A DNA stretch of 64,000 nucleotides from Branchiostoma floridae (Eukaryota > Chordata > Leptocardii > Amphioxiformes > Branchiostomatidae), in the NCBI RefSeq assembly GCF_000003815.2, contig NC_049988.1, positions 15,692,040 through 15,756,039 on the forward strand. Direction: 5' to 3'. Shown piece after piece: positions 11,232-36,866 of the stretch. The notes below the pieces were generated by a model that saw only the letters and a list, made by a program, of their open reading frames with translations, did no database searches and was not told the DNA's origin. Numbering within the stretch: the first letter of the stretch is position 1; each line of letters opens with the position of its first letter. The position numbers and the translations under genes are program-made.

Positions 11232-11305
<74 letters not shown>

Positions 11306-11330
11306 GCGTGTGTGCGTGTCTGTCTACATG
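11206..11330. repeat. (GT)n microsatellite
   Basis: Long nearly pure GT tract with a few A and C interruptions, next to the N gap. Confidence 0.97.
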
Positions 11331-17700: not shown

Positions 17701-20700
17701 AGAACCTTTACATAAGTAATTTTTGTGACATATGGACAGCTAACACAGATTTACTTTGTGTCCAAATGTGGCAATACGGACATATACACTGTAAATACGA
17801 ACAGTGTGGAATTCCCTGACGTTCGTTCTTTATTCCGTTTCATTTTTCTAGCCACCGAGTTGAGGAAACTTACCAAAAACTTCAATGTTGGCTTCGGCGC
17901 TTTTGTGGACAAGACCGTGTCTCCCTACGTGGATACATCACCAGCAAAGTACGTATGCATCATACTCATGCCTATTTCATTTTGACTAGGCCCTCTTTCC
18001 ATTAGAGGTTGTGACCGCTAATGATCAGAGACGGAAGATATTACAGATTAGTCAATGAATTTCACAGATAAGAACAATTTTAGACGTTTTCGTGTCTTTT
18101 GGGTCGTTCTATTAGATCTTGTATGAGATTTTTCTAGATCAATGGTCAATCAACGGTCGCCGACTTATTGGAAAGGCCGTACCCTAGTTAGTCCAGGAGG
18201 AGATTCTAAGAAGAGGCCGAGGCCAAGAAAGTGAGAAACATAGCCCGCCCAGCACATACGTAATCAGCCTAGTATCATAAAATGATAGCTTGATCTCTTC
18301 CGATAATTCCTCGTTATTATGTTCTATGGTCCAGGTGGGGTATCATGGTCCAGGACTCTTTATGCAAATTTATGACAATTAGACAATTGTACCTCGAATT
18401 TGAATATGCTGTTCTCCTATCTTCCAGACTGAAGGAGCCCAGCCCCGGCGCCGCCCCTCCCTTCAGCTACATCAACGCCCTGTCGCTCACGGACGACGAG
18501 GACCTGTTCAATGACGAGATCGAGAAGATCAGGAGCTCCGGAAACCTGGACGCCGCGGAGGGAGGGTTCGACGGCATGCTACAGGCGCTGGTTTGCAGGG
18601 TGAGTAGTAAAGCCTCCACCGCGGGTTGCATATACCTTGGAGAAGCTCTGCTAATGCTTCTGTCACAATAGCGCAGGTGCCCGTAGGGATGTAACCTCGG
18701 CCAGACATTTTTGCCCGGTAGACCGCGTGGGTGCTCTCTCGGTGTTCTCGCGATTATGTCACGGCATGTGGCCTTGTCCCGGGTTGATTTTAACTCCCTG
18801 GTAGCCACAGGGCCATATAGAGCTCGAGGTCAGGCTCGAAAGAGCACACAAAAAATGGTATCCCAATGTCACTGCAGCCCCGGCCCGGCCTCGAAGCCAG
18901 AGATTTGTTGCGGTGGACTTGCCGAAATGATGAAAAAAAAAGCCCAAGAGCTGCCCGGCGTTGCCGCTTTTTCCAAAGCATTAGTCCGGACAAACAGCAC
19001 GATATGATGATATCATTTGTTGATGACGTGTATTCTTTTTCCACCAGGATAAGATCGGTTGGCGGGAAGCCTCGACCCACATCATCCTGTACGCCAGCGA
19101 CGCGCAGTTCCACTCGGCAGGGGACGGCAAGCTGGGCGGCATCGTGCAGAAGAACGACGAGAAGTGCCACCTGGACATCAAGGGGAAATACATGGAGGAG
19201 TTCGCAAACTCACAGGTATGTCTAACGCAACTTTTTATCTTCACTATGAAGGGTATGTTATTGGTTGCGTTTCCATCAAGGGGAAATACATGGAGAAGTT
19301 CGCCCACTCACAGGTCTGTCAATTGCAGCTTGTTACCCTCGCCAAGAATGTTTTTGGTTGCGTTTATTATACTACCCCGCCACACAATACAAAAGGTTAT
19401 CGACCTACAAGTCTGTCATGTGTGCACTAAATTATATTTTCGGTAGCAATACAATAGTTGTGCGGCTTATCAAAAGCTATAAAATCCGGACGTTTTCAAT
19501 GCACATGCTACTACACACACATATCATCTCACCTTCTTTCTTTTTCTTTCTTTCAGGATTACCCGTCAATCAGTCAGATTAGATCCCTCCTGGAAGCAAC
19601 CAACACTCTGCTCATCTTCGCCGTGGACAAAAAGTACCAGAGCGTCTACGAGGTATGCTGTTTCAAACGTAGGATACATGTAACCAGGCAGTAAGGTGGT
19701 AATGAGTTTACGTCCTGAAGTAGATGTATATATAATAACGAGAGTTCTTAGACCTCATACCCCCATGAAATAAAATTCTTTTCTTAAAATTCCTAGCTTT
19801 GATTATCATTTGTCATTAATTATGTAAATAAGGCTTCATCCATCCAAGATGAACTTCATTTTGAATACAAAGTGAAAGCACTGACTAATTTTTGATTAAC
19901 GATTGTATGACCAAACTTTGTCAAACGATACTGACAATTCTGTACCCAACAGAAGAGTTTAATCGTATCTAGCCAAGTGTGCCATAAGTAGAATGTATAC
20001 TATAGTAGCTTGGTTGTCAGGAAAATACCTTTTCACCTTTGTTCTTGCAGAGCTTGGCGAACAGCCAGTTCGCAGGCCTGGCCACCGCCGGTGTCCTGGA
20101 AGCGGACTCCAGTAACATCATCGCGCTTATCGAGCGATCCTACAACGTAAGTTGTTTCACAGGTGTATCTTAATCTATTTCTTATGTTGCAGGCGTTCAA
20201 GACATGCGGAATTTTTTATATCTTGAACGATGAATGCTGGAAAGTTATTACCAATATTGCATCGTATATGTACGATGCAATAGGAAAATATTACAAGTAG
20301 ACCCTTGAAATGTAGAATTGATAGACTCTTTTTTTTAACCTTTCAAACTAACTTTCAAACTAAATCTTACTGAATTTAGCTTTCTTACTGAAAATGGGCC
20401 AATAATACGCAATAAATGCAATTGTCATCGTCATTGTCATCAAAAGCCATGGATTGATCCTATACCTACCTTTTCGTCTATAGCAACTGCTGTCCCAGAT
20501 CGAGTTGAGTTTCGTGGACTTCCCCAGCGAGTACATGTCCTACACTGTCACTCCCAACTGTGGTAACGGACAGAGAGACGGAAAAAGATGTACCAACGTG
20601 CAAGTAGGGGACGAGGTAAGGCGGTCTTAACACCTTCTAATCGTAACGATGAAGTAAAAATTTGTATGTCTGCACTTTGTTGTCGCTATTGCAGTGGAAG

Positions 20701-23700
20701 TAAACTCAAATTAAATCAATGAAATCAAATCAAAACCAAATAAAATTGATGAATAACTGTTGACAAATATGGCAATCATCCGCCCAAACTCAATTGTCAC
20801 ACCTATCTACCATGTTCAACCATACTGCCTTGCATGTTTCTTTTCCAATAGCCTATATTACTTTTCTGATATCACCATCATCAAGTGAATTTGTGCCCTA
20901 CTGTTTGAAAATATCAATACATGTACAGAAAACATAATCTTCAAGCAGATCCTACGGTAGCATAAGATAGTATCAAAAGCTGGCAGAGGAGTGAAGCAGG
21001 CCAAGGAGTGTGTAACCGTAGACGACCTGTGCCCGTCTGACTTCCTTTGGCCGACTGTGCTCATTGGTCAGCTTTGATACTAACGTATGGCGCCGTAGGA
21101 TCTGCTTGGAGATTACAGAAAACAGGCAGTTCACATTGCCCGCTTATCGTCGCTTCTGATGTTTTCAGGTGACCTTTGACATAGAGCTGAAGATGGACGA
21201 CATCCCGTTAGACTCCGCACAACTGAACGCCGAACACGAGTTCAAGATCAAACCGGTCGGTTTCCACGAAGAGCTGGTGGCCAAGCTGCGGTACCTTGGG
21301 TCTTGTGACTGCGAAGCACAAGCAGTGAGTATCATGATAAGAAACTATCTTTGTAAATTATCGCAAGAAGGATAAGATTTAGTTTTCTTAGAAAGTAGAC
21401 CCACTCATGAAGTTGACAATGATGCATATAGATTACGAAGATAAGTTACTGCAAAGCATAATATGAAGGCTAATTACAGATAACAATGGTACAATAAATA
21501 GAAAAACAATGACAGTATGAATGACATAGTAATAGATAATATTCATCACCACTGCCATTTTGAAGCAAATGACTGAATGATCAAATGTTTTTTCAGGTTC
21601 CGACAAGTGGCAAATGTAACACCCATGGCACATTTGAGTGCGGAAAGTGTGTCTGTGACTCTGGATGGTAAGTAACTTGCCTTTTCTTACTGTGACGATT
21701 ATAAGTTCATCTTTTTACCTCAAGTGCGGTGGAAGCGCACCTTTATCCTCATGGATTAGCCTGATGACAAAACAGAACACTAAGAAGTCAAATATCGCTT
21801 GTTGACTCTTACAGGCTGGGGAACACGTGTACCTGCGACGCCTCCAACAACACCGTCGCCGCTAACAACGAGGCGTGCATCCAGCAGGGAAGCATCGACG
21901 TGTGCCAGCGGAGAGGAACGTGCCTGTGCGGGGAGTGCATCTGCGACAGGCCCGACAGATTCTCCGGAAAGTTCTGCGAGTGTGACAACCAGGCCTGCGA
22001 GCGCTTCAACGGGGCTATCTGCGGAGGTTCGTATGGGTATTCACGTACAGCGTATACTACTTAATAAAGTAGCAATATTAACGTTACAGTACCTTGAATT
22101 ATCCTATGTTAATTGGTTTAAATCTACGTCAAACTAGATCATACTCAACTTTTGCTTAGGCCCGGTTTACACGAGGGAAAAATGACTTGTCCTAAAAATG
22201 TCCTACGACGTTCGACGCGCGGCGCGTGTCCTAGGACACATTTTTGTCCGTGTAAAAACGAAAACGACCCGCTGTGGCGCGCCGCAGTGTGGGTTTTATT
22301 TTTATTCTAGCTTTTTCGAGGCGATATATTACAGTTTGGTGCAAGTGTTCTATTTTCTTTAGACGAATAAAAAGAAATTGAAAACACTGTGATCAGTTTT
22401 TGTAGTGTTCTACGTTCCTTCATACATACAGGAGAAAACCATTAGCTTTGTACTAGTTGTATCTCACCAGTATAGTAATCCCTTTGTCTCACGAGACGAT
22501 GCTATCGCTCTGTCATTGTTTTTCGACCTTACCAGTGATGTAAAGTAAAACAAAGCTACCCTGACAGCATTTGCGTGATAACATGATACCTTTTGTGTCT
22601 AATCGCCGCTTTCTTTAGATTCTAAGGTTACATTTCAACATGGATAGTTGTGTTTTACATGTAGACATATTAAGCATGTTTTGAACATTTTCTATGTCTA
22701 CCCAGGTCCAGCGTTTGGAACATGTGACTGTGGCACTTGCAAATGCAAAGAAGGCCGGGAGGGTAGCGCCTGCCAATGCCCGAGCGACCGATCCGTCTGC
22801 AAACCAAGCAACGCACCGGACGATGCCGTAAGTTAAACTTGTACTATGAAGTAAGAATAGACCCATTTAAGATTACACCACACTTGTATATAGCATTATG
22901 GGTTCGCCTCGACGATGTGAGAACAACTTCATCAAAATCATCTTGAGCTATCACGTTAGGTGAAAAACTTGAAAAAAATGCAAACAAAAACGTTTCACCC
23001 ATCGGAGGTAAACCTCTCTTGCCGGTGGTAATAACGAATGAAGACCTTTCTTGTACATTTTTGCCAAACTGGGCTAAGCACATCTCACGTGGTAACAAAG
23101 TATAACGTTACACAAACGTCTAATCTATTCTTGTACTTTCGTCTGGTTGTACTAAAGCTACACGCTAGGTGCCGCTGCAATGACGCGCATCCCTCTCGTC
23201 ACGGCTCATACCGGTGTAACGGTTATATAAATACACAATAAGTCGTGAATTGTGAAACGTATCCCCTAGCGATGTACTAACCTGATGAAACTTATCACGG
23301 ATGTTTTCCTTGTTCAGGACCTGTGTAACGGCCATGGTGAGTGCGCCTGTAACGAGGGGGAGGAGCAGCGCTCGTGCGTGTGCGAGGAAGGGTACAGCGG
23401 CAGGTTCTGCGAGGAATGTCAGGTACGGTCCATCGGGAATCTAATAATGATTTGAGTTTTATTTAGTTTCCTTTATCTTAATATTGCCAAGTATCATAGC
23501 ATTTGCATCATTCGTTAATTTTGTAGTATTATATAGAATGACAACATGTAGCACTGACAGCGAAAGCTTGCTGGTATGGCCACAAGTTACCTCAAATGAA
23601 ACCTGCATTCGACTCAAAAGTACGCAACTTCGAACATATATAGTTCGGGTTCTGTGAAAGAGATCCTTCATTTTGCATTTCTTATCACACATCTTAAGTG

Positions 23701-26700
23701 TGTGCAAGGAAACATGATGTGAGGACAACACTTCATACATTATGTTCAGGCATATGTTCACCTTCTTGGATCGTGCTTGTGGTTGCGTCTGCTTTGTCCG
23801 TAAAACAAAACGTACTAGGGAGGTTGGTTAACAAAAGTGAGAGTGTATTGCTTAAAAGAAGGGTTAACTTAAGTTAACGTCTTTAACTGTTCCGTCCGTC
23901 TGTAGGCATGTCCAGGGAAGTGCGACGTCCTGAAGCCGTGTGTCCAGTGCCACGCCTGGGGGAAGAACTGGACAGAGGAGATCTGTGTCAACAAATGCGT
24001 GGACAAAGTCTACATGACTGACCGGCTGCGAGACGGTTCGTTAAGTTCCCTTTTTCTTACCATGTTATTTCGGTTCCTTATATATTCCAATCAACACTCC
24101 TGGTTATAAATCACATGTTAATAAGATCACGTGTTAATAAGATGACGTGTTAATGAGACCACGTGTCAGTAACTCTCGCGAGTTTACGTTCTGAAGGGAT
24201 TGGTCATCAGTTTTAATCCAAAGATGGCGACAGTGGTCGTTGAAAATTTGATCCGTGTGTACTTTTGTGTTGGAAGAAAGTTTAGCATTGTACTATGATT
24301 TCTGGTTATGATTGGGTCATATTTTCCAAAGCTGGGTCCCGTCAGGCTGTTTGTGGGAACGAAAAATAAAAAGGCACATCACGAAATGCACATTATGATT
24401 ATGCCTGATGTAGTTTTGTTGTCTCTTGTATCACACTTATCGTTTTGGCAAAACTATGCGTAGGGGCCAAAACGTGACCTTAAGCACAGCAAGAACCTCT
24501 TCACAACACAAGCCCAAAAACACATGAAAACACAGTGAACCTTCTTCTATTGTACAATATCACTCTACACTCATTCAAACCCTACAACTGGATAAAAATG
24601 TGAGATATATATACTTACAAATGTCCGAATGTAAATGTTTATGTTTCTACAACAGATGTAGGAGTGACGCGTTGTTCGTACACCGATGATGACGGCTGCA
24701 CGGTTCACTACACCTACGGCACGGACTCCTACAAGGGACAAACGTCAGACGACTTCGTGGTGGAGGTCCGCAAGGACAGAGGTAAATGTCATTCATCAGT
24801 TTAGTTCAGTTCATCCTCGGAGAGGTGCCACCATCGTCTCCACATGTTCCTGTCCAGCATGATCGAACGGAGCTCGCCGGCCTGTAAACCCGTGTCCTCG
24901 AGCAGTAGCTTCCTGAGTGTGGCCGAAGGGCGGCCACGCCTGCGCGGCTCTCCCGGTTCCCAAAGCAAGACCTCTTCTGCCATTTCCTCGTTTCATTCAT
25001 ATCGTTGCAAAAACGAGATAATGCTATATTGACATAATGTTTTGAAGTATTAGCTTGTTTAATATCAACTAGATTGTCTATACCGTTAGATTAGATTAGA
25101 TTAGATTAGATTAGATTAGTTGTTAGATTATTTTCAACCCATGATACAAGCAAATGATTGATTTAGATTCTTTAAATAGTACATAGTTCAACCCATATAA
25201 ATACAGATTGCCATACATTGTACCTGATGATATTGTCGCGCTATATTGACAATTCTCCCATCCTAAAGCCTATGTTTGGTTTAAAGCAGTCATCAACCTT
25301 AACGAAAGATAGTCTTATTGCTACCAAGTACTGTGGGTGTATTTTCACTAGATAACTTCAAACTACGCTTGCAGATAGATGTGCAACGTTACAACCAGTT
25401 GCTAACATAATGCGTCCCTGCGAAGCTTGTGTGTCACGCCGGACGGCGGTTATACCGGCTACGCAGACAAAGATCATAAGATAAAGTACGTAAAAGCCTA
25501 CACAGGAGCAATGTCACAAGAAGTACCAATGTCTTCCACAACCGTGTTATGGGTCTGCTCATGTCCTTATTCAAAGAACCACATTTGTAGTAAAGGAAAA
25601 TTAAAAAGCATAGGTGCTATTTAACACATACACTGACAAAACAGCTGTACAAAAATAAATGAAGTTAGATGAAAGAACGTACCTTCATTCATAGTTAGAG
25701 TATAAAAGAGTATAAAAGACCTGTTTCTTCCAGATCACTTCAGTGTCACTGACGAAGGATAGTGGATATATCCGAAACGTCTGACCGTTTCCAAAACCAT
25801 ACCCAGTTGCTTGAGTAACTACTTTTTGTTGTATCTTATTACCTGGATGTCTAACCTACATCGACGTACCTATTTTGTTTTCTTCCAGACTGTGTGACCC
25901 CGTTCCCGTGGTGGTGGCTGGTGCTGGGCATCATCCTGGCCATCCTGCTGCTGGGCCTGTGCTGCCTGTGCTGCTGGAGATGTTGGGCATACTACAAGGA
26001 CAAGCAGGAGTTCCTACTCTGGCAGGACGAGATGAAGCAACAAGCTGTCGGATGGGACACAGTGAGTAGACTGGATACCTAGTATAGGGGAGAATAAGAT
26101 GAGACGTGCACTCTTTGGTTGCCTGGTCAGAACTGCTCTGGACAGACTGGGGGTCTGTCCCTTTATTGAACACTTATCAGAAACATATGTGGGGTGGCCC
26201 TGTCCTAGCTAGGACCACCTATGGCCAGTTTTATAGATCTTCCTGTTATCTCACATTGCGACATCCATATGTGCTTCTAAGACTAGTAACGTATTAGTGA
26301 TGAGGATAGCTAGGGTCACATTGGACATAATCCAGACCATTGGGCAGCCGATGGGTGAACAGCAAACATTGGTCATTGAGATCGTTAGTCATTGAGATAA
26401 ATTCAAAGTCAAGGAGTTCTTGCTCTGGCAGGACGAGATGAAGCAACAGGCTGTCGGATGGGACACAGTGAGTGGACTGGATATTATGTAACGTATTCGT
26501 GTTGGTGATAGCTAAAGTCCCATTGGACAGGACTGAGATTGTTGGGCAGCTGATGAGTGAACAGCAATCATTGGTCATTGAGATCATTAGTCATATGAGA
26601 TGATTTCAAAATTAAATCTTTGAAAGATCCTTCAAAAGTCATTTGGAGACGTAGGAAAGTGAAAAGTAATAGTGATATCGATTCAGTTTCGCTCATTGAA

Positions 26701-29700
26701 AAGCTATTGTTTTGGACGCTCATTGCTGGTGTGATATGTTTATGTCCTGAATGCTTGGTGAAGTCTTAACCACTGTGCTCCGTATGGACTTCATTGAAGT
26801 AAGAGCTTTCATGGATTTTTTACATCGACTTTTTTGCAGGCAGAGAGCCCAATCTACACCGGTGCGGTCACGACACACCAGAATCCTGAATTTATCGGTG
26901 GAGGCGCCGGTAAGATTACAAGTTTGCTCCTCTAAACAAGCTGCATGAAATTTCTAAAAGGGAATCTCAAGATACAAACGAGTCCGATAAAAGACTTAGC
27001 TTTCAAAGAAATTTGTTCTCAAAGTTGTCACTTGATGCATAAATGTTTTATAGCCATTGCAGGTGCGTCCGTTGTTGATGCTGGACTAGTAAACGCATCC
27101 GCTCCAGTTGCAGCAGGTACGTAACCTCCTGCCAAGCGTCGGTATTTGATATTTCTATGAATCAGACATTGAAAACAATCTCTTTTCACTCAAGAACGCT
27201 ATAAACAAACAAAACGTACATGTATTCAATATAACAAAGAAAAAAGAGTCAGCAAGTAGAATTGAATACATAGAAGAGAGCACGTATTGATGTAACAGTC
27301 ACACGCTTCTCTTGATGGCCACCATGTTGGTGGGTTAGTGCGTCATAGTCACGTGATTGCAAACTACAACCTTACCTTGTACATCTTGTCTCGTGCAGCT
27401 GCTCCGATGATTAACCTTGATCTGAAGGACAAGTTGATCGTGAAGACCGGGTCAGTCATCATCCTGGACATCCCCTTCAGCGGCCGCCCCTCCCCGGACA
27501 TCGTCTGGACTAAAGATGACGTGGAGATCTACAGGTGAGGATGTCAATCAATCAATCAATCGGTTAATTTATCAGTCGATCGTTATTGACCAATACGCAG
27601 TAGAATACAAAAGAATGAAACTTGAATAATGTTTATTTACAAACAGTTCCAACATCCACAATATAAAACTCTTTCAGAGAGAGAGGAGAGAGAGAGAAAG
27701 AGAGATGGAGATTTGGGATAGTTCCATACTGTAGATGTTGCAACTGTTTTGAAAAAAAAATGATACTCAGTTTTATTCTAAATTCCCATCGACCATCAAA
27801 GTGCTGAAAAAATCACAGAGCATCATTTACTCATGCCAGCTACCATTGCTGCTTCAACTGCTGCTGCCAGCTCTTTTCCAAGCCTTTCTCCTTATTTTTT
27901 TCAGTGGGGATCGGGTGACCATTGAGAACGCGGCCACCTCCACCACTCTGTCTATCAAGAACTGCCAGCGGTCGGACGCCGGGAACTACAGACTCGCCCT
28001 GGCTAACACGGCCGGGCGCGCCAAGGCCGATGTGGACGTCGTCGTCATTGGTAAATATCTCTTGCAATGAAAATGTTTTACATATTCTACCTAAAGACAT
28101 TTGATAGTTTGCAATATATCTCAAAGGTTGGCGGATATATGTATGTATGTTTGTTTGTGTGTGTGTGTCTTGTGGTGTGTGTGTGTGTGTAGGTGTGTGT
28201 ATATGTGCGTGTGTGTACGTGTGTGTGTGTAGGTGTGTGTATGTAGGTGTGTGAGTGTAGGTGTATGTGTGTAGGCTTATATGTGGGGTTGGTGTGGTCT
28301 GTGTGTTTCTGTTTGTGTGTGTGTGTATGTGTGTGTGTATGTGTGTGTGTATCATGGTGTGTGTGCATCTGTGTCTGCAAGTGTGTATACACTATTATTA
28401 CATGTCATCATTTTATCCCACGCAGACAAACCGGGACCTCCAAAAGAAGTGCGTATCGATGACGTCATGCAGGATTCCGTGGCGTTGTCATGGCGACAGC
28501 CAATGGACGACGGCGGCAGCAACATCACTAACTACGCGGTTGAGAAGTTTGATTATGACCGTAACAACTGGGCCATGGTCAACCCTTATGTCCCAGGTAC
28601 TGAAGTAATTTTTTTTCAAAAATTACACGTATTAAACTCTAGTATACATATCTTACGTCTTGCTCGACAGTTAATAACTTTTGCATCGGACCAGACCTGT
28701 GCATTGGTAGAGGTCCTCTACAAGGCTCCCAATGTCGCTGAAAATAGTAGAAATCGGACAAATACAAGATACAGACAAATAAAACACTAGAGGAAGGGGT
28801 TAATCGGCCCAAATTCTATTTTTGAGGCGACCAACTCCTCAAGTCACACATTTGTGTTGTCTATCTGGCCAATTTCTACCTTTTCCAGCGACATGTAGAG
28901 CCTGGTAGAGGCTGGGCCAAGCCTTGTAACAAAGATTTTGTTGACCTTAAGCTTGTACTGCTATATTTTGTTGCAGGTTTCAACTACACCGTGCCTAACC
29001 TGGTGCCCGGAGCGGAGTACCTGTTCCGTGTGGCCGCTGAGAACCAGTGTGGGCTCGGGGAACCGACAGAGAGCGAGAGGATCGTGGTCCAGAACCGGCA
29101 TGGTAAGGGTTGTGCTCCTCAATTTCTGCAGTAAGGTTCAGTGGTTTGAAATAAAACCAGTCAAACTAAATCCTAAAAGCATGGCAAGAATTTTTCTCAT
29201 GTGGTGTGAGGCTAAGTGGTATTGGCAGATATCAAGTCAGTCAAACTAAAGCCCTCCAAAACTACCCAAAAGGGAAGAAATGTATTCATGACTTACACAC
29301 CTACATAAACACTATGCATAACAGTACATATACAGTACTGCACAGTCTCTCCGTTTGAAGAATTTCTCTACTGTTATATATCTGAATTCGTTTTCACCAT
29401 TACATGATATACGCTTAAACTACCAAAATGATTGCCACGGTCCAGCCCTTGGAAACAAGAACAGTGAAAGTAGGAAAAGTAATCTAACATAGATTTGATT
29501 GAGATTGAGATAGTATTTACTACATACACGGGTGCAACAATTGCAAATGTTCTTCAATGTCCTTAAACTGTGCTCAAACTGATCTATCAACCCTTATCTC
29601 CAGGCCGACCCCCGGGCGTTCCCGGTACCCTGACCTATGAAGAAGTGACCGGTGACCGGGTGACCCTGCGCTGGAGCCCGCCATTGGACGATGGAGGTAG

Positions 29701-32700
29701 CGAGGTGAGTAGGGCACATTTGTGTATGACTCCTGCTGATCAATACTTTGGCTTCAGTAAAAATGTGAAGAAAAGTTAGAATTCCTTTCTAAAGAAATCT
29801 CTCCTAATTACACTGTCCCCTGTTGGGAAAACACAACTGACATAAGTGTATCTACAAGTGAAAGTACGATGAAATTAAGGCAGGGTGTGTGCGGGTCTGT
29901 ATGTGCGAGCTTATTTTTTCAACACACGACCTCAAAGTCTTTTTCAAGTCATTTTTTCCACTAGATATCTATATCAAACAGGTTAACTCGTGTCTTTGCA
30001 GCACAGACATGTTTATGGCCTCCTTCAGTCCATATCGACCATGGTAAAGTTCTAATTTAAGTAGTAATTGGTGAAATGAACATTCGTCATATTCTCTTTG
30101 AAATCGTTCATTCCAGATCACCAACTACGTGATCCAGAAGCGTGACTCTAACGACCCCCACGGTTGGACCACGGTGTCCTCCTCCGCCACCCGCACCACT
30201 CACCGGGTCGGCAACCTCAACCCCGGCGGTAACTATCGCTTCCGAGTCCGAGCGGAGAACTACTACGGTCCGGGGCCCTGGACGGAATCCGGCGGAGTCA
30301 TGCTGGGTGGAGGTTCTCTTGGTAAATTTTCCCATAACTCAGGTCTAACTTCGTAACAACCGCGATCCTAACTTGTGTGCAGTCTGGCATTCAGTTCAAT
30401 GTTTGGTCCAAAATTGTGAAACTACAATGTTTGTAGACTGAACTTCGTCCGAACAATGTTTGTTCCAAAATTTGTAAAAATCCGATGTTTGTAGAATTAA
30501 ATTCATCCTTAACAACCATGATCCTAACTTGTGTGCCGTTTGCCCTAAATTGACATTCAATATCTAATGGCTTCTGCCTGTAGCGACATCGATGAAAATC
30601 CATCGAATGCATATGTGGCTGCAGTTTAGAGACTTTCACTAATTAAGATCCAAAACGTGGAAAAGAAACATGACCGTAACATTTCTCTTGAAAGATGACA
30701 GATTGAAGACACAATCACTAATTGAACATTCTGTACTTTTTTGGTTACACGAATCCAGTCTGCCTTATTTCTAGATTATTGGCAATGGTACTTTTTTTCA
30801 AAATCAGCAAAAGAGTGGTTATTAAGAAAGCATTAATTGGCCGCTAGAAGCCACTGCAAATGTCAAATCGGTGGAGGCCAGCTCACATATCTTTTACAAT
30901 GCACCACAACTTCATCCACGTTTTCAGGAAGGGGACCGGTGCAACAGAACATGTCGTCGTTTAGCTCGGGGCAGTTTTCCACTCTGCCCGCCGGGATGAG
31001 CTTCCAACAGCCGGCCTACATCATCGCTCAGGCGCCCCCCATGAGCTCGACCCTGCCGTACGGAGCCAGTTTCCCGTCCATGGCGTCCTGGGGATCATCC
31101 ATGCAGCAAGAGGTTCCACAACAGCAGGCCCCTCCTCCGAAACCTGATCCAAGTGAGGCCCCCTACCGTTTGCAATTGGGACTGCCGCCTTCCTCTGCTG
31201 CCCTTCTCTACCACTTCTCCACCTTCCCGATTGCTTTTGATCCGCCGCGTTTCAACAGCACAGCAATTTTGAATGTCCCATCACTGCAATACATATCTTT
31301 GTTCCTTGTCGCGCTTGCTCTGCATTCTCAATGTCGCGCTCATAATCGCGCTGTGCCCCTCCCCTTTAACCCTTTTAAATAGGCTACAGGATTAGTTTCC
31401 AGTATTAGACAGCTTTGCCTATCCCTCTGAGTATTCAAATATCGATCCATTGCTCTCTGAGCAGTAGCGTCATTTTCGCTGTAGATAGTCTTTTATCCCG
31501 CCCTTGCCTTGGCTAGCGTCTGTAGTGCTTTTGTCATATTCACTTCCACATGTAACGTGCTATGCTGATACTGAGACCACTCACACATTGTTGCGGTATC
31601 GCTTACCTGTTCTGCAATGATGCAGCTGTGTGCAACATAGGGCACTATTGTGTAGTCTATATCATAGAATTTAGTTGCCTCCTGCACTAAATGCCCTGCG
31701 CCTAGCCTTGGTCATTCCTCTAGCGATACTCACGTTGCTTTTCCTTTGGCGCAACTATACTGTACCCTTGTAGACATGCAGTAGTGCAATGCATGCGATT
31801 CCTTAGCCGTCCAGCCTAATAAACATTAAACGTGCTTCTTGTAGTTTTCATGGTTACCTTCCCTGCCGCTTTGTAAAAGATTCATGGAGTATCATGTGCG
31901 AATGTCATGGGATTGTTGCCTTTATTCCATTGTAGTTTTCTTTTGATAAATGATTATTGCTTCTCGCTGAAATATTCCTGTTCCGGTATGCTGCTCATGT
32001 AGTTAATGCTGGTAGACATTGAAACATATGTGTTAAGATCCCCCACGTCATAATTTTCTACTTGTACATACTATCGGGAATGGCATTTGTATCGAACTTG
32101 TAGGATCTCGTGAAATGGCCAGACATCATGTACTTGATTTTTAAAGCCTACTTACAGCTGACAGAAGATGCTTACCTTGAAATATTACATACGCTTGTAC
32201 ATGCATTAACAAAGATAGTCTTCGATGCCCCCGGACGCTGAGAAAGCTGCTGAATAACCCCGTATTTGCGTAGACCGACAGAAAGATAGTAATCCTTGCG
32301 CCACCAGATTTGTAGTGAATTGGATGAAGTTCCACGATCGAAGCAAGGAGCTCCTTGATCGAAGGGACCAAGAAGACGGTAAGATGCTTGAAAGGAAGCT
32401 AACAAATGACGCTTGCATAGCCATCAGGCAGAGATAACCCGCAGTACCTGCAGATAGATCCTCAGTACCTCCTGATAGACCCGCAATACCTCCAGATAGA
32501 CCCGCAGTACCTCCAGATAGGCCCGCAGTACCTCCAGATAGGCCCGACATTCTGACGTGTGTTGCTCGTCCCAGTTGGCCCGGTGCTGCGCCAGGGAGTG
32601 ACTCTAGTGGGGAAGGACTTCACCGAGGTGCTGCTGCTGCTGATGCGGGGGGACACGGGCATGCCCAGCCCGCTGGCACGCTTCTACACGCACCAGCCCA

Positions 32701-35700
32701 TGGACCAGATGGGCGAGCAGCAGCTCAACGACTGCACCGGCGGCCTGTGCGGGTTCAAACCTGCCGAACTGCTCATCCTCTGCGGACTCACGCCCAACAG
32801 GTTAGTTTCTTTTTTTCCCGGGCTTTATTTATTTTGTGTTCTACGGCCAGCGTAGCTCAACTCAGTGTAACCACACTGCTTTACAGTGGGGCCCTGGATA
32901 ATCTTTATAAACAACGAATGAAGACATTGACCTCAGGCACTTGCAAGTACAGTAGAAACTAGTTAATTGCACAGCGGATTAACGCACACTTCTGTTGACT
33001 ACACGATATCCCAAAATCCCGAACCGGTGCGGTCAAGCTGGATAACTTCGCATTATTGCACCAGTCGGATAATTGCACGAAATACGGCTTTTACTGTATT
33101 GATATTGGCTTGAGTTTGTTTTTGTTAAATTTGGGGGGCTGTTTTTTATTGGCGGTTTCTGCTTATTATGACATGGGCATTCGCTGTATGCAATCAGTGA
33201 AACGGTAATATCAAAACGACTACCGTATTAAGAGCTGTATGAAGGTCAGCAACACGTATGGATAAGTTAGATTAGGAAAACCTTATGAGAACATGATTAT
33301 TTTGTCATTAGCGGAATATTACAACGCCAAAAACCTTATTTCATAATCAAGAATAAAACCTTACCGTCAGTATTGGCCTCCGAGTAGCCGTTTCAGAAGA
33401 TAAACGTGAAATCCAATGTTTAAAGGCTGACGTTAAGACATTTTAGTAATACATACTGAAGATTTAACTGTTGTTTTTCGCAGGTCCAACACGCTTAAAT
33501 TGTGCCATTACCTCATCATTCTGGCTAACGAAGAACGGAGCCACCACCCAAGTTTTAATGTGAGTTTGCTTTATCTGATAAGGTATACTAATAGTCACAA
33601 GCTACATGTAGTCTAACATCGCTGTACAACCAGTAGAGATCAGAGGTTACGTTATGTGAAATCAGATAAGAGATGAGGGACGGGTTTATGTAGTTGCCCT
33701 GTTCCTACATACTCCCCCCCCACGTTTATTTTATGAGAAAGATTGTATCATTATGTAAACAAAGTTGCAAAAATGCAGTGTTGATGTTTGCTTCACCATA
33801 CTTTGATTGTAAAAGAAAAGTAAACATTAAACTGCCTTTTTTTTCTTTCCATAGAGCCTGGATGATGTCCTAGTTACTGTGAAGCAGATCTGTAAGAAGC
33901 AGGACCTGTCCTATGACGCCATCTCTCTCATCAACGCCCTGACCATCCTGGTGGATCTCGGTAGGAAGTACCACCACCAGGACCTCCAGAAGTTCGAGAA
34001 GGCGCTGCACGAGGCTCGCACCAACATCACCAACAGGGAGCTTGGCAGGGTCATCCTTACCATCCTGGGTACACTGAGGTTTCCACGTATCTACTGCAAA
34101 ATGATGGAGGCATAGGACAAGCCACTTACTGCTTACAGCGAGGAAATGCTGCTTCAATGCCGTGCATTGCCGACCACCCCCCCCCGCAATTTAGCCTATT
34201 ATCCATCCCTATATAGCTCTTTATAGGCTATATCCAGTAGTACCAGTACCCGTCGCAAAATACAAGGCTAACCACAATCAAGTGTTATCTATTTCATTCT
34301 CGGCTTATGAGCTGAACGTCGATGACTGTAGCAGGGGTAGTAGTAGTTTGTAGTCTCAGTCTTTGTTGCCTGTAAATATGTTGAGAGCATCAGGCAATGA
34401 ATAATCTCTTTATTAAAAGCATTGTCTTTGCGTTCTGAATGGTCGTTCACCATCCTGGATTCATCCAACCCCTGCCACCATGGTGCCTGCGGCAACAATC
34501 TTTGATCGCTCTCGCGTCTTCTTCGCACGCTTTGCAATCGACCCGCGTTTGCTGGTAAAGGCTCAGTGCTTATGTGAGATTGCTGCGCCTCTCTTTCCTT
34601 TCTTCTTTTCCCCACGAGTATTCGCGTTCTTTCTACACCTCTATTCCGATTTTCCTCACTTATGGTGGGAATGTGGTAGGAAGTCACATTATCATTGACA
34701 AATTATGTTTTGTAACGTAACGTGAGGAGATTTCAATTATCTTTAAAATGTCATGTGTTGGACTTTATCTAATTGTTTCGTCAATAACTTTGAACACATT
34801 TCAACACATTGTAATAGATATTTAATCTAAAACGCTTATGGCAAACACAATGTCACTCAGGGATTAAAAGGGAAATTAATTTCTCCTTATCAAATTATTA
34901 ACTTCTCGTCAGCCCTATAAAGCCCACAGCCAAATCTAAAACATGACGTCACTATTGCTCCTTAGGCTTGAACGTCGTTGTCGTCAAGGTGAACGTGACC
35001 TTGAAGAACAAGGACATCACCCCTCTCCTGCTGAGCCTGAAGGACGGCGACGTGGACCTGCCGCCTAACGGCGATGACCTGTGCCGCTTCAAGCTGGACA
35101 CGCCCCTGGACCAGATGACGGACGACGAGCTGCGTGAGAACATCGAGGAACTCTCGGGCTTCACCCCGGAGAACCTGCTGGAGCTGATCCAGATGCCGGC
35201 GACGCGCCAGAACGTGCTGGCCCTGGCTCACCTGATGATCCAGCGCGCCAACGAGGACCTGCCCGTCACCCCGGCGGCGCTGACACCAAAGGCCCGCTCA
35301 CGGACGTCCTCACAGTCAAGTGGCACGGGCCAAGAGGTGGGTATGAAAAGGTCAGTATCGGACACTACCTGCGGTACGTATCTTATCCGCCGCCGGCCGC
35401 CTCGCCTCGGCTGGCGATCTCGTCTTGAACTAACCGCCAACCGTGTCTTCCACAGGGAAAAGGTCGCAAATTTTCACGTATTCCTCAGATGAGCAAGACA
35501 GGTTTTCACTATTGCAAAGCTGTTATTAATGCCTGTGAACTCCTAGCAGACGTTTTGAAGCATTTTCATAGGGTAATTTGCCAGAAAAACTGGGTAGACG
35601 GAAAGGGGTTGCGGTCTTCTTTACCGGCATCTGCTTTGAGCTTGTTTGTCGTACTTTGTTCTTATGACTCCTTTGATGAGTATGTGTCAACTGTCAACTA

Positions 35701-36866
35701 CAGCTTACTTTTGGGACACGCTGCCCAACGAATCGGTGACGTCAGTGAATCTTGTTTACACATGCTCATCCAATGCAACGTCATCAGAACAAATGTTTAT
35801 CATCTGAGAACCTTTTGAAAACTTGAGACCTTTTCCTGTTACAAAATGCCGCTTACTAAACTTGTCAGACATGCATTGAGTTACCATTTCTAAAGCAAGG
35901 TTTTGAAATGAGAAAGACCTTCCCTCGGATTTCTTTCTTTGACAAGGTGTGCATGAAATTAAATTACTTCTGATCATTTTTTTCCTTTTGTGTCAGAGCT
36001 AAGGAATGTGTTAATTCTTGAAAAGTACTTACCGTGGACGTGTCAATGTTTGGGGCTTTTGTTGGGTGCACTTCTGGAGGTGGCGGTCTTACTGATTATT
36101 CTTTCATTTGTTATGATAATTAGAAATCCCGATTTAAGTTTTTCCCATAACTTGGTCAACATTGAAGCTAAATATGAAGCACAAAATGGTGCATGTAATA
36201 CTGCTTAAGTTTTGTTGTTGCTTTCTTTATAAAAGTGCAATCTACGATACAAAAGCACTTTTGTTGTATTAATACGTTTCTTCAACGCTTGCATGATCTA
36301 TTTCTTTGGATCACAGATTTGGTATCACACTTTTAAAATCAATTTGCACCAAAATCCTTATCGTTAAATCCAAGCCTTAAACACGGTGAATGAAAATTAG
36401 CGGTCTCCTAAACTTCGCAGCAACTTTCTTAAAACTCTTCACACTTATCTGTAGTTCTGTTTTCATTTCACCGTCAATTGCTAAAGGAAGCAATGTCATT
36501 AGACATCTTTCAAAGCCAATGTAAATGTAGTTCTCAAAGTTTTGTATTTCTCTCTTCTGTTAACAGTTAACCGGCCCGGAGCGGGCAGCCAGAGTGGGGA
36601 GGAAACTTGATTGGTTAGAGACAGCGTTGGAAGAGGCAGCTGTCAAACAAGCGTTAAACTGTGCAAGACTTTCAGCCTCCAAACCAGCAAAAGACTTTGA
36701 CAGGGACAGCCTTTTGATCAGTTTAGAAAATCTGCAGGACGTCACGAAACAGTACCAACATCCGGAGTGGAGATATTACCAGGAAACATTGACGATAGCG
36801 AGACAAAGTATGTCGGACCCAAACCTTGGCAAGTTGGTTCTGGCGCTTATTGGAAAACCGAGTTAG
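11634..36866 (+). CDS. Integrin beta subunit fused in frame to titin-like Ig-FN3-FN3 and two novel repeats (34 exons traced)
   Basis: Type I membrane receptor, predicted to pair with an integrin alpha chain and bind ligand through the beta-I metal site. Exons joined at GT..AG sites give 1,860 codons without a stop; exon lengths and phases are consistent at every junction. Numbering from the first supported exon: PSI end 1-34, Gly/Ser-rich 35-349, RKKR 364-367, hybrid/beta-I from about 380 to 690, hybrid and EGF repeats to about 911, beta-tail to 996, membrane span about 1004-1026, WDT plus SPIY and NPEF 1052-1072, Ig 1095-1190, FN3 1190-1288 and 1289-1390, Gln/Pro linker to 1465, repeat 1 1466-1637, repeat 2 1638-1860. 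A normal integrin beta tail is about 50 residues; here the cytoplasmic part is about 830. The 5' end is incomplete. Integrin identity is certain; the single-transcript fusion rests on frame and splice-site continuity and needs RNA evidence. Confidence 0.85.
11977..12528. repeat. Tandem direct repeat, two units of 276 bp
   Basis: Unit starts at 11977 and 12253 begin catcatgccggactgaacca and stay nearly identical to cacttccgggtt. Each contains a tctcgcgag motif. In the intron after the PSI exon. Confidence 0.93.
13050..13850. repeat. Degenerate array of ATGCAAAT-containing AT-rich units
   Basis: About six copies of atgcaaatgagg..tttgcataaattat.aga spaced roughly 110-240 bp (near 13070, 13190, 13320, 13560, 13690, 13805). 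The octamer and its inverse recur. A relic copy is near 19815. Confidence 0.75.
14187..14709 (+). CDS. Exon: Gly-rich extracellular insert, part 1
   Basis: Starts after a ttgcag acceptor in phase 0 with about 45 non-repetitive residues containing two Cys ([12 protein letters not shown]). It then becomes a long Gly run broken by Ser, Thr, Phe and Ile ([17 protein letters not shown] type repeats). The DNA repeats imperfectly, so it is a coding minisatellite. The donor is uncertain: GT at 14710 or 14713 both leave phase 1, which the next exon needs. No other integrin beta I know has such a segment between PSI and hybrid domains. Confidence 0.75.
14530..14709 (+). repeat. Coding minisatellite in Gly-rich exon
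   Basis: Unit ggaagttttggaggagggagtaccggtggtgg-aggtacaatcggt recurs at 14530, 14584 and 14641 with small length changes of multiples of 3. Confidence 0.9.
15045..15123 (+). CDS. Exon: Ser-tract, part 2 of Gly/Ser insert
   Basis: A TCA/TCG/TCC microsatellite encodes 12 consecutive serines, then [12 protein letters not shown]. Phase 1 in, phase 2 out; donor GTAAGT. The frame links the Gly exons on both sides. The acceptor (tccaaatgtag) has a poor pyrimidine tract. Confidence 0.7.
15170..15484 (+). mobile_element. Non-LTR retrotransposon 3' end (RT C-terminus and tail)
   Basis: The frame encodes [20 protein letters not shown] and ITKKREEVE, then stops; it is followed by gacctgtacttagcccag ... 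caataaaggtcttcat. The protein piece matches the fragment at 60955..61345. It sits in an intron between the Ser exon and Gly exon. Confidence 0.75.
15703..15953 (+). CDS. Exon: Gly-rich insert, part 3
   Basis: Follows ttttgctag. Encodes repeated SSFGGGG units, a long uninterrupted Gly run and then [13 protein letters not shown]. Phase 2 in, phase 1 out, donor GTATTT. The splice phases fit both neighbours. Confidence 0.75.
16125..16218 (+). CDS. Exon: Gly/Ser-rich insert, part 4
   Basis: Encodes [14 protein letters not shown], then GTIGGEGG and an acidic end LTSDDFFT. Acceptor gtacgcag, donor GTCAGT, phase 1 in and phase 2 out. Confidence 0.75.
16592..16716 (+). CDS. Exon: furin-type site and start of hybrid domain
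   Basis: Begins [14 protein letters not shown], then RKKR (residues 364-367) followed by Q-IDDD, and ends [13 protein letters not shown]. The last part matches the conserved integrin beta stretch before the beta-I domain (typically P..L.L.LRPG). A pyrimidine-rich acceptor, phase 2 in, phase 1 out. Confidence 0.9.
17281..17412 (+). CDS. Exon: beta-I domain with MIDAS and ADMIDAS
   Basis: Encodes [33 protein letters not shown] DxSxS is D416, S418, S420; ADMIDAS Asp423 and Asp424 follow. The [12 protein letters not shown] stretch is diagnostic of integrin beta. Donor GTGAGT, phase 1 out. Confidence 0.97.
17520..17706. mobile_element. Dispersed repeat, partial copy of 55748..55955
   Basis: Shares tttagatattgcgt-atacgtaaaa-tatgact and gaaaattcgttctttatc-ctg with the element at 55.75 kb. 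Lies in the integrin beta-I intron. Confidence 0.75.
17852..17948 (+). CDS. Exon: beta-I domain, second segment
   Basis: Encodes [20 protein letters not shown] followed by [11 protein letters not shown], the conserved RxxTxxFxxGFGxFVDK region of integrin beta-I. Acceptor tttttctag, donor GTACGT, phase 2 out. Confidence 0.96.
18428..18599 (+). CDS. Exon: beta-I specificity loop and metal sites
   Basis: Encodes [13 protein letters not shown], then [16 protein letters not shown] and [14 protein letters not shown] ... LVCR. E512 is the MIDAS glutamate; N507 and D509 match the synergistic metal site. The specificity-determining loop is shorter than in human beta-3 and lacks its Cys pair. Donor GTGAGT, phase 0. 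Confidence 0.95.
19048..19215 (+). CDS. Exon: beta-I domain ([10 protein letters not shown])
   Basis: Encodes [20 protein letters not shown], then [20 protein letters not shown] and [13 protein letters not shown]. The IGWR and [14 protein letters not shown] motifs are conserved in integrin beta. Phase 0 at both ends; donor GTATGT. The 3' part is duplicated in the next intron. Confidence 0.96.
19178..19450 (+). repeat. Partial exon duplication in beta-I intron
   Basis: Unit of about 95 bp at 19178, 19275 and (decayed) 19368. The second copy repeats atcaaggggaaatacatgga and cactcacag of the exon end and retains an open frame ([13 protein letters not shown]). Confidence 0.9.
19557..19652 (+). 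CDS. Exon: beta-I domain (DYPS..IFAV)
   Basis: Encodes [12 protein letters not shown] ... [15 protein letters not shown], matching DYPS....L.....IFAV....VY of integrin beta-I. Phase 0 at both ends, long pyrimidine tract before the acceptor. Confidence 0.95.
20051..20146 (+). CDS. Exon: end of beta-I domain
   Basis: Encodes [20 protein letters not shown] then [12 protein letters not shown], the G.L..DSSN...LI...Y motif closing the beta-I domain. Phase 0 at both ends, donor GTAAGT. Confidence 0.94.
20484..20615 (+). CDS. Exon: hybrid domain, C-terminal part (a)
   Basis: Encodes [20 protein letters not shown] ... [20 protein letters not shown]. The C....G..C..V..GD pattern matches the integrin hybrid domain after beta-I. 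Phase 0 at both ends, donor GTAAGG. Confidence 0.92.
20936..21114. mobile_element. MITE in integrin intron, CTCCAAGCAGA family
   Basis: Left aatcttcaagcagatcctac, right gtaggatctgcttggagatt, with TA at each border and an inner inverted pair (tagtatcaaaagctg / cagctttgatacta). Interior shared with 1704..1882. Confidence 0.85.
21169..21324 (+). CDS. Exon: hybrid domain end and first I-EGF cysteines
   Basis: Encodes [20 protein letters not shown] ... [18 protein letters not shown] ... SCDCEA. The KPVGF motif and following CDC are typical of integrin beta. Phase 0 both ends. Confidence 0.94.
21597..21667 (+). CDS. Exon: integrin EGF repeat 1
   Basis: Encodes [19 protein letters not shown], the CN.xGTFECGxCxCxxGW signature of I-EGF1. 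Phase 0 in, phase 2 out, donor GTAAGT. Confidence 0.95.
21815..22026 (+). CDS. Exon: integrin EGF repeats 1-3
   Basis: Encodes [45 protein letters not shown] and ICGG. Cys spacing and the GKFCECDN..C motif match I-EGF2. Phase 2 in, phase 1 out, donor GTTCGT. Confidence 0.95.
22161..22275. repeat. MITE-like short element in EGF intron
   Basis: ggtttacacgagggaaaaatg ... gtcctaaaaatgtcctacga, with inverted tcctaggacacatttttgtc and ccgtgtaaaaacg. Looks like a compact hairpin element. Confidence 0.5.
22706..22827 (+). CDS. Exon: integrin EGF repeat 3
   Basis: Encodes [21 protein letters not shown] then [10 protein letters not shown], matching I-EGF3. Phase 1 in, phase 0 out, donor GTAAGT. Confidence 0.94.
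23035..23095 (-). mobile_element. 3' tail of the same retrotransposon family
   Basis: Minus strand reads cttagcccagtttggcaaaa then atgtacaagaaaggtcttcat, like the other tails. Confidence 0.5.
23318..23422 (+). CDS. Exon: integrin EGF repeat 4
   Basis: Encodes [20 protein letters not shown] ... [11 protein letters not shown], matching I-EGF4, although the usual CGxCxC centre is altered (CACNEG). Phase 0 at both ends. Confidence 0.93.
23906..24035 (+). CDS. Exon: beta-tail domain, part 1
   Basis: Encodes [20 protein letters not shown], then [17 protein letters not shown]. The C..K..CVQC...G motif fits the integrin beta-tail domain; NWT is a possible N-glycosylation site. Phase 0 in, phase 1 out. 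Confidence 0.92.
24656..24781 (+). CDS. Exon: beta-tail domain, part 2
   Basis: Encodes [20 protein letters not shown] ... FVVEVRKDR, like the C...D.DDC...Y.Y......V.V.. end of the beta-tail domain. Phase 1 at both ends. Confidence 0.9.
24795..25000 (-). mobile_element. Non-LTR retrotransposon ORF2 C-terminal fragment
   Basis: Encodes [20 protein letters not shown], then [10 protein letters not shown] and [10 protein letters not shown]. The RRRGRP..T........D...W pattern is the C-terminal end of many LINE reverse transcriptase proteins. Located in the intron before the transmembrane exon. Confidence 0.75.
25087..25120. repeat. (GATTA)n microsatellite
   Basis: Seven pentamer units in the intron before the transmembrane exon. 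Confidence 0.95.
25889..26061 (+). CDS. Exon: transmembrane helix and talin-binding tail start
   Basis: Encodes [11 protein letters not shown], a hydrophobic run of about 23 residues ending in a Cys/Trp cluster (CCLCCWRCW), then [14 protein letters not shown] and AVGWDT. The KDKQEF block corresponds to the HDRxEF inner-membrane motif and WDT to the talin-contact Trp. The Cys cluster could be palmitoylated. Phase 0 out, donor GTGAGT. Confidence 0.95.
26408..26590 (+). repeat. Duplicate of membrane-proximal tail exon segment
   Basis: 54 nt at 26414..26467 repeat the end of the transmembrane exon ([18 protein letters not shown]) including the GTGAGT donor; the following intron text (cattggacaggactgag...gtcattgagatc) also repeats 26300..26395. 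Confidence 0.92.
26840..26909 (+). CDS. Exon: integrin tail with SPIY and NPEF
   Basis: Continues WDT as [18 protein letters not shown], colinear with WDTxxNPxYxxAxTxxxNPxY of integrin beta tails. The first NPxY has Ser for Asn and the second has Phe for Tyr. Phase 0 in, phase 1 out. Reading past the donor would reach a stop within a few codons. Confidence 0.93.
27063..27116 (+). CDS. Exon: short linker after integrin tail
   Basis: An 18-codon exon encoding [17 protein letters not shown], Ala/Val-rich, between the integrin tail and the Ig domain. Phase 1 at both ends, GT..AG sites good. It keeps the frame open into the Ig exon. Confidence 0.75.
27399..27534 (+). CDS. Exon: intracellular Ig domain, first half
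   Basis: Encodes [20 protein letters not shown] ... [15 protein letters not shown]. The G.P.P...W.K strand signature is that of titin/MyBP-C/twitchin I-set Ig domains. The usual strand-B Cys is absent, as in many cytoplasmic Ig domains. Phase 1 in, phase 2 out. Confidence 0.92.
27677..27708. repeat. GA-rich simple repeat
   Basis: agagagagaggagagagagagaaag tract in the Ig intron. Confidence 0.9.
27905..28050 (+). CDS. Exon: intracellular Ig domain, second half
   Basis: Encodes [20 protein letters not shown] followed by [20 protein letters not shown], with the L.I....SD.G.Y.L...N..G core of I-set Ig domains. Ends VVVI in phase 1, joining DKPGPP of FN3 exactly as in titin-type Ig-FN3 junctions. 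Confidence 0.93.
28137..28388. repeat. GT-rich low-complexity tract in Ig-FN3 intron
   Basis: Irregular GTGTGT with A, C interruptions over 250 bp; makes His/Thr and Cys/Val ORF artefacts. Confidence 0.95.
28426..28596 (+). CDS. Exon: FN3 domain 1, first half
   Basis: Encodes [14 protein letters not shown] ... [20 protein letters not shown] and [30 protein letters not shown] is the hallmark of titin/twitchin-family FN3 domains. Phase 1 at both ends. Confidence 0.95.
28714..28911. mobile_element. MITE-like element, CTACCAGGCTC family
   Basis: Left cctctacaaggctcccaatg, right catgtagagcctggtagagg, with inner arms gtcgctgaaaatagtagaaat and its inverse. Lies within an FN3 intron. Confidence 0.65.
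28977..29102 (+). CDS. Exon: FN3 domain 1, second half
   Basis: Encodes [20 protein letters not shown] then [11 protein letters not shown], the L.PG.EY.FRV.A.N..G.G.P motif of FN3. Phase 1 at both ends, donor GTAAGG. Confidence 0.95.
29604..29704 (+). CDS. Exon: FN3 domain 2, first half
   Basis: Encodes [20 protein letters not shown], then [14 protein letters not shown], a second FN3 start. Phase 1 in, phase 0 out, donor GTGAGT. Confidence 0.94.
30117..30321 (+). CDS. Exon: FN3 domain 2, second half
   Basis: Encodes [20 protein letters not shown] ... [20 protein letters not shown] and [10 protein letters not shown]. Closes the second FN3. The donor after 30321 (GTAAAT) or 30312 (GTTCTC) both leave phase 1; the first is better. 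Confidence 0.92.
30928..31152 (+). CDS. Exon: Ser/Gln/Pro-rich linker
   Basis: Encodes 75 residues rich in Ser, Gln, Pro, Met and Gly ([40 protein letters not shown]), probably disordered. Acceptor ttttcag, donor GTGAGG, phase 1 at both ends. The open frame continues past the donor to 31382, so an intron-retaining form with a different end is possible. Confidence 0.8.
32455..32547. repeat. 21-bp minisatellite before novel-repeat acceptor
   Basis: Four to five units of cccgcagtacctccagatag. It lies about 30 bp upstream of the acceptor at 32575. The frame of the next exon is closed here by TGA. Confidence 0.9.
32575..32800 (+). CDS. Exon: novel repeat 1, N-terminal part
   Basis: Encodes [32 protein letters not shown] and [18 protein letters not shown] recognise no known family, but it aligns with exon 34966..35336 (VTLxxKD, P.DQM, GF.P..LL). 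Phase 1 in, phase 2 out. In the frame, a TGA lies just upstream of the acceptor, supporting the boundary. Confidence 0.85.
33484..33559 (+). CDS. Exon: novel repeat 1, middle
   Basis: Encodes [20 protein letters not shown] then HPSFN. The R.N.L.L.H..I..ANE pattern is repeated in the second copy ([18 protein letters not shown]). Phase 2 in, phase 0 out. Confidence 0.85.
33855..34068 (+). CDS. Exon: novel repeat 1, C-terminal part
   Basis: Encodes 71 residues, helical in character, with [37 protein letters not shown] and [13 protein letters not shown]. The last part aligns with the end of the protein ([13 protein letters not shown]). Phase 0 in, phase 1 out. Confidence 0.87.
34966..35336 (+). 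CDS. Exon: novel repeat 2, N-terminal and middle parts
   Basis: Encodes [49 protein letters not shown] and [16 protein letters not shown], then a Ser/Thr-rich stretch ending SSGTGQE. It combines what repeat 1 spreads over two exons. Phase 1 in, phase 0 out, donor GTGGGT. Confidence 0.87.
36567..36866 (+). CDS. Last exon: novel repeat 2, C-terminal part and stop
   Basis: Encodes [52 protein letters not shown] and [13 protein letters not shown], then TAG at 36864. It enters in phase 0, the same intron phase and relative position as before SLDDVL in repeat 1. I found no clear AATAAA soon after the stop. Confidence 0.87.
   Translation, partial: LTGPERAARVGRKLDWLETALEEAAVKQALNCARLSASKPAKDFDRDSLLISLENLQDVTKQYQHPEWRYYQETLTIARQSMSDPNLGKLVLALIGKPS

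Follow-up and report, generated by a model that had tools for sequence, protein, structure and literature searches.

Does an integrin beta chain of the lancelet Branchiostoma floridae continue, beyond its membrane anchor and short tail, into cytoskeleton-like modules encoded by the same gene, or do two unrelated genes lie side by side? Integrins usually reach the cytoskeleton via separate adaptors, and beta4, which has its own large tail, is the well-known exception. A preliminary description of the window (the whole 64,000-nucleotide stretch of contig NC_049988.1 analyzed here, to which positions refer unless another contig is named) had proposed an integrin beta in which splicing keeps the frame through an Ig domain, two FN3 domains, and about 470 further residues. 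Our preferred reading, to which we give a probability of roughly 0.72 on the basis of sequence comparisons, is that a single gene encodes an integrin beta1-like receptor whose tail runs into a titin-type Ig-FN3-FN3 block and then into two DIRS1-type gag-like domains. Its parts are not equally secure: the predicted continuity from the integrin through Ig-FN3-FN3 is very likely, and the predicted attachment of the C-terminal repeats to this assembly is probable. Shorter isoforms of the predicted gene are possible.

The gene model consists of one open frame on the forward strand, from window position 16592 to a stop codon ending at 36866, with 30 exons, 29 GT-AG introns, and 1,510 residues; it starts at 16592 minus the N-terminal exons. 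Exons were chosen by eye on a six-frame reading, and a script then set the GT and AG sites at most 7 bases from the chosen ends. This hand-guided model is a consistency check rather than an independent gene prediction. No N occurs in window positions 16001-37000. The encoded domain order is an integrin beta head, a transmembrane (TM) segment, a WDT-SPIY-NPEF tail, an 18-residue linker, an I-set Ig domain, two FN3 domains, a Q/P/S-rich linker, and 395 final residues, distributed as follows.

16592..24781, forward strand: integrin beta ectodomain (hybrid, betaI/VWA, I-EGF, and stalk; 15 exons), from PDB integrin beta-1 (535 bits) and Pfam Integrin_beta (306.9 bits).
25889..26061, forward strand: exon for the TM segment and membrane-proximal tail, from the model and reading frames.
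26840..26909, forward strand: SPIY/NPEF exon, ending in a splice donor, from the model and paralog tails.
27063..27116, forward strand: 18-residue linker exon, phase 1-1, from the model.
27399..28050, forward strand: I-set Ig domain, exons 27399-27534 and 27905-28050, from Pfam and PDB.
28426..29102, forward strand: first FN3 domain (FN3-1), exons 28426-28596 and 28977-29102, from Pfam and PDB.
29604..30321, forward strand: second FN3 domain (FN3-2), exons 29604-29704 and 30117-30321, from Pfam and PDB.
30928..31152, forward strand: 75-residue Q/P/S-rich linker exon, from the model.
32575..34068, forward strand: repeat A, exons 32575-32800 (A1), 33484-33559 (A2), and 33855-34068 (A3), with a DIRS ORF1-like first half and a helical second half.
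34966..36866, forward strand: repeat B, exons 34966-35336 (B1) and 36567-36866 (B2), stop codon at 36864-36866, from the repeat alignment and ORF1 similarity.

The head of the predicted receptor is beta1-like. Residues 2-696 of the 700-residue ectodomain query align with integrin beta-1, the best PDB match at 535 bits, and Pfam matches to the 1,510-residue model include Integrin_beta (306.9 bits), I-EGF_1 (36.6 bits), EGF_integrin (30.3 bits), and Integrin_b_cyt (27.9 bits, over its cut-off). Integrin_B_tail (PF07965) is absent among the Pfam families at E <=0.01, though the beta-1 alignment spans nearly the whole query. A 66-residue N-terminal piece has no Pfam match; a PSI domain and signal peptide would be expected in exons ahead of 16592, where the model starts. 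The MIDAS motif DxSxS of the betaI/VWA domain reads DLSDS. Past the membrane, the membrane-proximal D and E-F pattern appears as YKDKQEF (HDRREF in the upstream paralog described below), and the two motifs at the NPxY/F positions are SPIY followed by NPEF. The TM segment, WDT-SPIY-NPEF tail, Ig domain, and both FN3 domains were thus recovered by the model and Pfam where the preliminary description had placed them. Within the intron at 26062-26839, a partial duplicate of the membrane-proximal tail exon and its donor lies at 26411-26473. Long Gly/Ser-rich open stretches were noticed by eye upstream of the integrin head, at 14188-16218, and an RKKR sequence that follows them, near 16630-16645, looks like a proprotein-convertase site.

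Genome-wide, 31 Integrin_beta matches fall into eight clusters, the window's own included, and the stretches of the seven other clusters were screened by motif for TM and NPxY exons. A canonical TM segment and NPxY tail with a stop codon were found in three of these seven loci, namely the upstream locus on the window's own contig (C10), a minus-strand locus on contig C2, and a locus on C267. The plus-strand locus on C2 has a TM exon, and part of the stretch that follows is masked. No tail was found by motif in the three other loci (two on C4 and one on C9) within the stretches examined. Integrin beta1 and the C10 paralog, which lies in tandem upstream of the window gene, are like that gene in head, stalk, TM segment, and WDT..NPxY-type tail, but the paralog stops at NPTYGGK, whereas SPIY/NPEF in the window gene is followed by a spliced extension. 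A separate observation concerns the minus strand of C4:13868560-13876497 (L027 and L028), where a tyrosine kinase domain (151.7 bits, plus a piece of 41.9 bits) lies roughly 3 kb downstream of Integrin-beta VWA exons in two frames (134.9 and 57.1 bits) and shares their orientation. If they form one gene, it is possibly an integrin-beta-like receptor tyrosine kinase.

The three modules that follow the tail are readily classified. Pfam gives I-set at 59.6 bits, fn3 at 108.0 bits over two stretches, and Pur_ac_phosph_N at 38.4 bits on the FN3 block. The titin/twitchin-type motifs named in the preliminary description are present as SDAGNY, DKPGPP, and a W.PP.DDGGS-type motif, and the titin affinity that it had claimed from them was borne out by searches. 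With Ig-FN3-FN3 as the query, titin accounts for the two best PDB sequences and myosin-binding protein C for the third. A search of the lancelet's own genome (135 of 556 candidates scored) gave at least 139 matches, and the five best lie in C18:17.18-17.19 Mb at 33-38% identity, in open frames of 1,917 and 2,045 residues; we infer that this giant Ig/FN3 gene is the titin locus. Six matches are on C10 in the window and, among the matches listed, only these six adjoin an Integrin_beta cluster. The Ig-FN3-FN3 sequence and order are common to the window gene, titin, and myosin-binding protein C, but in the window gene the block sits on a membrane receptor, comprises three domains only, each split by an intron, and belongs to a 1,510-residue model without a kinase family among its Pfam matches. 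The idea that the modules are part of a gene farther upstream was ruled out, there being no Pfam match at E <=0.1 in the three forward frames of window 1-13500.

The nearest working analogue is ITGB4, the vertebrate beta4, an integrin beta that resembles the window gene in carrying FN3 domains on a long extension into the cytoplasm. Passages of PMC4030831 give the ITGB4 tail as Calx-beta and four FN3 domains. The window gene differs in having no Calx-beta (PF03160 is not among the 12 Pfam families at E <=0.01 in the 1,510-residue model), one I-set Ig, two titin-type FN3 domains, and gag-like repeats, and its nearest solved ectodomain is beta-1. With Calx-beta missing, the gene is unlikely to be a copy of beta4. 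Beta4 is not among the best 60 of 90 PDB matches to Ig-FN3-FN3. A Ciona beta4 orthologue has been reported, in an account where short downstream ORFs resembled a beta4/exchanger domain (PMC1145181). Among the open-licence integrin papers listed, no title or opening of an abstract presents an integrin whose tail combines Ig and FN3 domains. The preliminary description, too, knew of no integrin with this order.

Residues beyond the FN3 domains had been left unexplained. Their presence holds, and 395 of them (1116-1510) prove to be one unit in two tandem copies, with a relationship to the ORF1 that DIRS1-type retroelements carry. The two diverged copies of this unit share 28% identity (E 4e-20), with identities of 45, 58, and 36% at codon positions 1, 2, and 3 (171 pairs). 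NG86 estimates over all 171 pairs are dN 0.79 and dS 1.98; over the first 75 pairs they are dN 0.72 and dS 0.86, and over the last 70 dS is undefined. The codon pattern fits selection on the protein, which may in part have acted within the element. Because part of the divergence between A and B may predate capture, selection in the host is unproven.

Standard searches return little for this region: no Pfam match over cut-off in four pieces, no NCBIfam match, and no credible match among PDB sequences (best E 0.53). The predicted structure of B1 is poor (pLDDT 51), leaving the first half uninterpretable in structural terms, and B2 is modeled as a confident four-helix structure (pLDDT 87) with no PDB match below E 0.001. 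The relationship emerged from element copies in the genome. First halves of A and B match the element ORF1 in 8 of 8 comparisons (two repeats against four copies), with E values of 9e-7 to 4e-14 as computed against seven sequences. When the repeat pair was searched against the genome, 31 matches were obtained, five in the window and 26 elsewhere, with a best E of 5.5e-9 outside the window. A small tree with seven element copies places A and B together with support of 0.86 on long branches. For the second halves, 2,000 shuffles were used in comparisons with the second gag segment. The score of A3 was reached by 2 shuffles for one of three copies, by 147 and 1,239 for the others, and by 14 for the profile; that of B2 was reached by 1,007, 1,434, and 1,183 for the three copies and by 251 for the profile. 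The second half of A appears to resemble the second gag segment of the element weakly, and that of B is without such similarity. A tblastn search with one second gag segment gave nothing in the window at E 0.1.

Accompanying element parts were not found near the host copies: the six frames of 31153-40154 gave no Pfam match at E <=0.01, and so none to reverse transcriptase (RT), a recombinase, or a CCHC knuckle, and five element ORFs have no tblastn match in the window at E 0.1. The window repeats have in common with DIRS1-type gag the first-half domain and, apparently, the phase-0 break between halves, but here two diverged copies stand in tandem at the end of a predicted receptor, with no knuckle, RT, or recombinase nearby. 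Together, these similarities make it probable that two domesticated gag-like domains close the tail. Beyond the gene, minus-strand ORFs at 39119-40009 look like a secreted peptide precursor with a hydrophobic leader, a KR site, and a Cys-loop (CIDWSKGSWYWC), and they have no Pfam match at E <=0.1.

Four element loci (L053, L054, L055, and L056) were examined. In three of the four, what lies downstream (a recombinase domain of DIRS type, a CCHC knuckle, or an RVT_1 match) puts the matching ORF1 at the DIRS1 gag position. A knuckle segment follows the ORF in L054 and L055, an RVT_1 match of 27.4 bits, just under the cut-off of 29.6, also lies downstream in L054, and an ALOG domain (98 bits) lies downstream in L053; no knuckle, RT, or ALOG was noticed by eye in L056. 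Text of PMC3537659 maps ALOG domains outside plants to a class of DIRS1-like retroposons and names Branchiostoma floridae among the hosts. ORF1 has 36 genome matches, one of which is repeat B of the window, and the second segment occurs at 24 places. Pairing was done with 32 of the 36 ORF1 matches, repeat B included, after four second pieces of listed loci were dropped. For eighteen of these 32 places, a second segment follows 1.6-2.9 kb farther downstream in matching orientation, and two of the eighteen share one partner. The C17 copy that served as query and a copy on C2 are 99% alike, the kind of similarity that a recently mobile family would show.

The gap between the two segments has features of an intron. 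In L053 and L055, the ORF1 segment reaches a possible donor, GAG/GT, in phase 0, and L054 has a frame shift before the break point with no donor seen. The second segment in L053, L054, and L055 begins in phase 0; it is preceded by an AG that stands directly before GATGA and has a stretch rich in pyrimidines or T ahead of it. The A2/A3 and B1/B2 introns of the window gene are both phase 0 as well. From this apparently shared phase-0 break, it seems that an intron splits the element gag and that the break was retained in the host copies. The words "intron" and "splic" are absent from the main text of PMC3266345.

Coding signals extend well past the integrin tail. Codon usage was trained on the 15 head exons and evaluated against 346 open frames from window 1-13400, a region that was used for the background model as well. 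From 25889 on there are 15 exons, 12 of which rank at or above the 98th percentile, the exceptions being 27063-27116 (73rd), 33484-33559 (83rd), and 36567-36866 (93rd). The linker exon at 27063-27116 is thus without coding bias, and codon usage is not diagnostic for it; the 98-base piece that contains it occurs only once in the genome. With synonymous codon choice alone, 11 of the 15 exons remain at or above the 98th percentile, and 28426-28596 falls to the 93rd. As far as a hand-guided model and this bias can tell, the frame is kept as had been proposed, through Ig, FN3, FN3, and 470 more residues to the stop at 36866. The linker, Ig, FN3-1, FN3-2, second linker, and repeat A are each phase 1 at both ends, and repeat B starts in phase 1. 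In the modeled exons, these phase-1 module borders are an exon-shuffling pattern. Chance agreement of frames over two joins is about 1/9, and such agreement is hence weak evidence alone.

Whether one gene or two occupy the locus turns mainly on the 489 bp that separate the NPEF exon from the first Ig exon, a stretch that also holds the linker exon. If the intron after the NPEF exon is retained, KITSLLL and a stop are added, and a tail of normal length results; this, and a linker frame that is open upstream to in-frame ATGs at 26945 and 27035 (both inside the 153-bp intron before the linker), would suit two neighbors, an ordinary integrin whose KITSLLL end falls before 26936 and, next to it, a titin-like Ig/FN3 gene of its own with either ATG as its start. 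We regard this arrangement as very unlikely, since neither AATAAA nor ATTAAA is present in the two introns of the gap (26910-27062 and 27117-27398), 489 bp leaves little room for a terminator plus promoter, both ATGs have T at -3, and all four splice sites that join the NPEF, linker, and Ig exons score within the best 0.1-6% of background sites (matrices trained on 15 head introns; background of 2,128 GT and 1,868 AG). Among nine starts tested, an upstream ATG is absent from the open frames of both Ig exons, the second FN3-1 exon, A1, A3, B1, and B2; the first FN3-1 exon has one upstream in-frame ATG (28281) and the linker exon has the two already named. A separate promoter and start for the Ig/FN3 part are therefore unlikely, even with in-frame ATGs available, and the one-gene reading draws its support from the size of the gap (489 bp), from the lack of a start codon, and from the loss of the stop. 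That the assembly fused unrelated segments is a highly improbable explanation: the evidence does come from one assembly, but 16001-37000 has no N, and frames and splice phases agree at every join.

The C-terminal end is where the single-gene reading meets its strongest competitor. The gene could be integrin-Ig-FN3-FN3, with its end near 31382 or else, past repeat A, around 34115, and with the gag-like repeats in another transcript or in rare isoforms. In favor of this version, two splice sites that bring in the repeats are weak: acceptor 32574, just ahead of repeat A, falls within the top 30% of background AGs, and donor 34069, which leads from A to B, within the top 28% of background GTs. The last exon has weaker codon bias, and 36867-37600 lacks both AATAAA and ATTAAA. 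In addition, read-through of the donor of exon 30928-31152 leads to a stop at 31382, and because an AATAAA follows at 31818, a shorter isoform or an end before the repeats is possible. We nevertheless consider this version unlikely as an account of the gene: the frames of A1, A3, B1, and B2 hold no upstream ATG and so depend on an exon before them, exons 32575-32800, 33855-34068, and 34966-35336 have strong coding bias, and phases agree. The direction of transfer can also be questioned, because homology alone is directionless, and the intron-like break in the element gag looks as if exon structure had been inherited. The retroelement would then have taken its ORF1 from a host gene, and the integrin would end in a host domain of other origin. 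This proposal is quite improbable given the gag position of ORF1 with a knuckle, RVT_1, or recombinase downstream in three of four loci, and given that GAG is the first ORF of DIRS1-like elements in the description of PMC3266345.

Under the single-gene reading, the last tail exon ends in a splice donor rather than a stop, so that translation would continue into Ig-FN3-FN3 and then into the gag-like copies. The following proposals draw on the functional roles of integrin tail motifs and of these domain families. Ligand binding and alpha-chain pairing would be intact, and talin binding at the first talin/kindlin motif would be weakened by its degradation to SPIY in place of NPxY. The Ig-FN3-FN3 block might serve as a stiff arm in the cytoplasm and dock on a partner in a filament or a muscle attachment, a role comparable by analogy to that of the beta4 FN3 tail for intermediate filaments. 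The gag-like pair might self-associate, clustering the receptor under the membrane and backing up or replacing the talin/kindlin link. We offer only tentatively the full proposal of a chordate integrin with a titin-type arm and tandem domesticated gag domains that still self-assemble, a receptor that would cluster itself from inside via a capsid-derived module.

The predicted gene also bears on a published list of vertebrate-only domain pairs. In Table 1 of a 2024 survey of 22 metazoans, Branchiostoma floridae models included, Integrin_B_tail with Calx-beta and Integrin_B_tail with Pur_ac_phosph_N appear as vertebrate pairs (PMC11788884). The survey and the window model need not conflict, because Pur_ac_phosph_N matches the model but Integrin_B_tail does not at E 0.01. 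A second long integrin tail, differently built from the first, would show adhesion receptors gaining cytoskeletal arms by exon shuffling, and it would offer a testable case of gag self-assembly used on a receptor tail.
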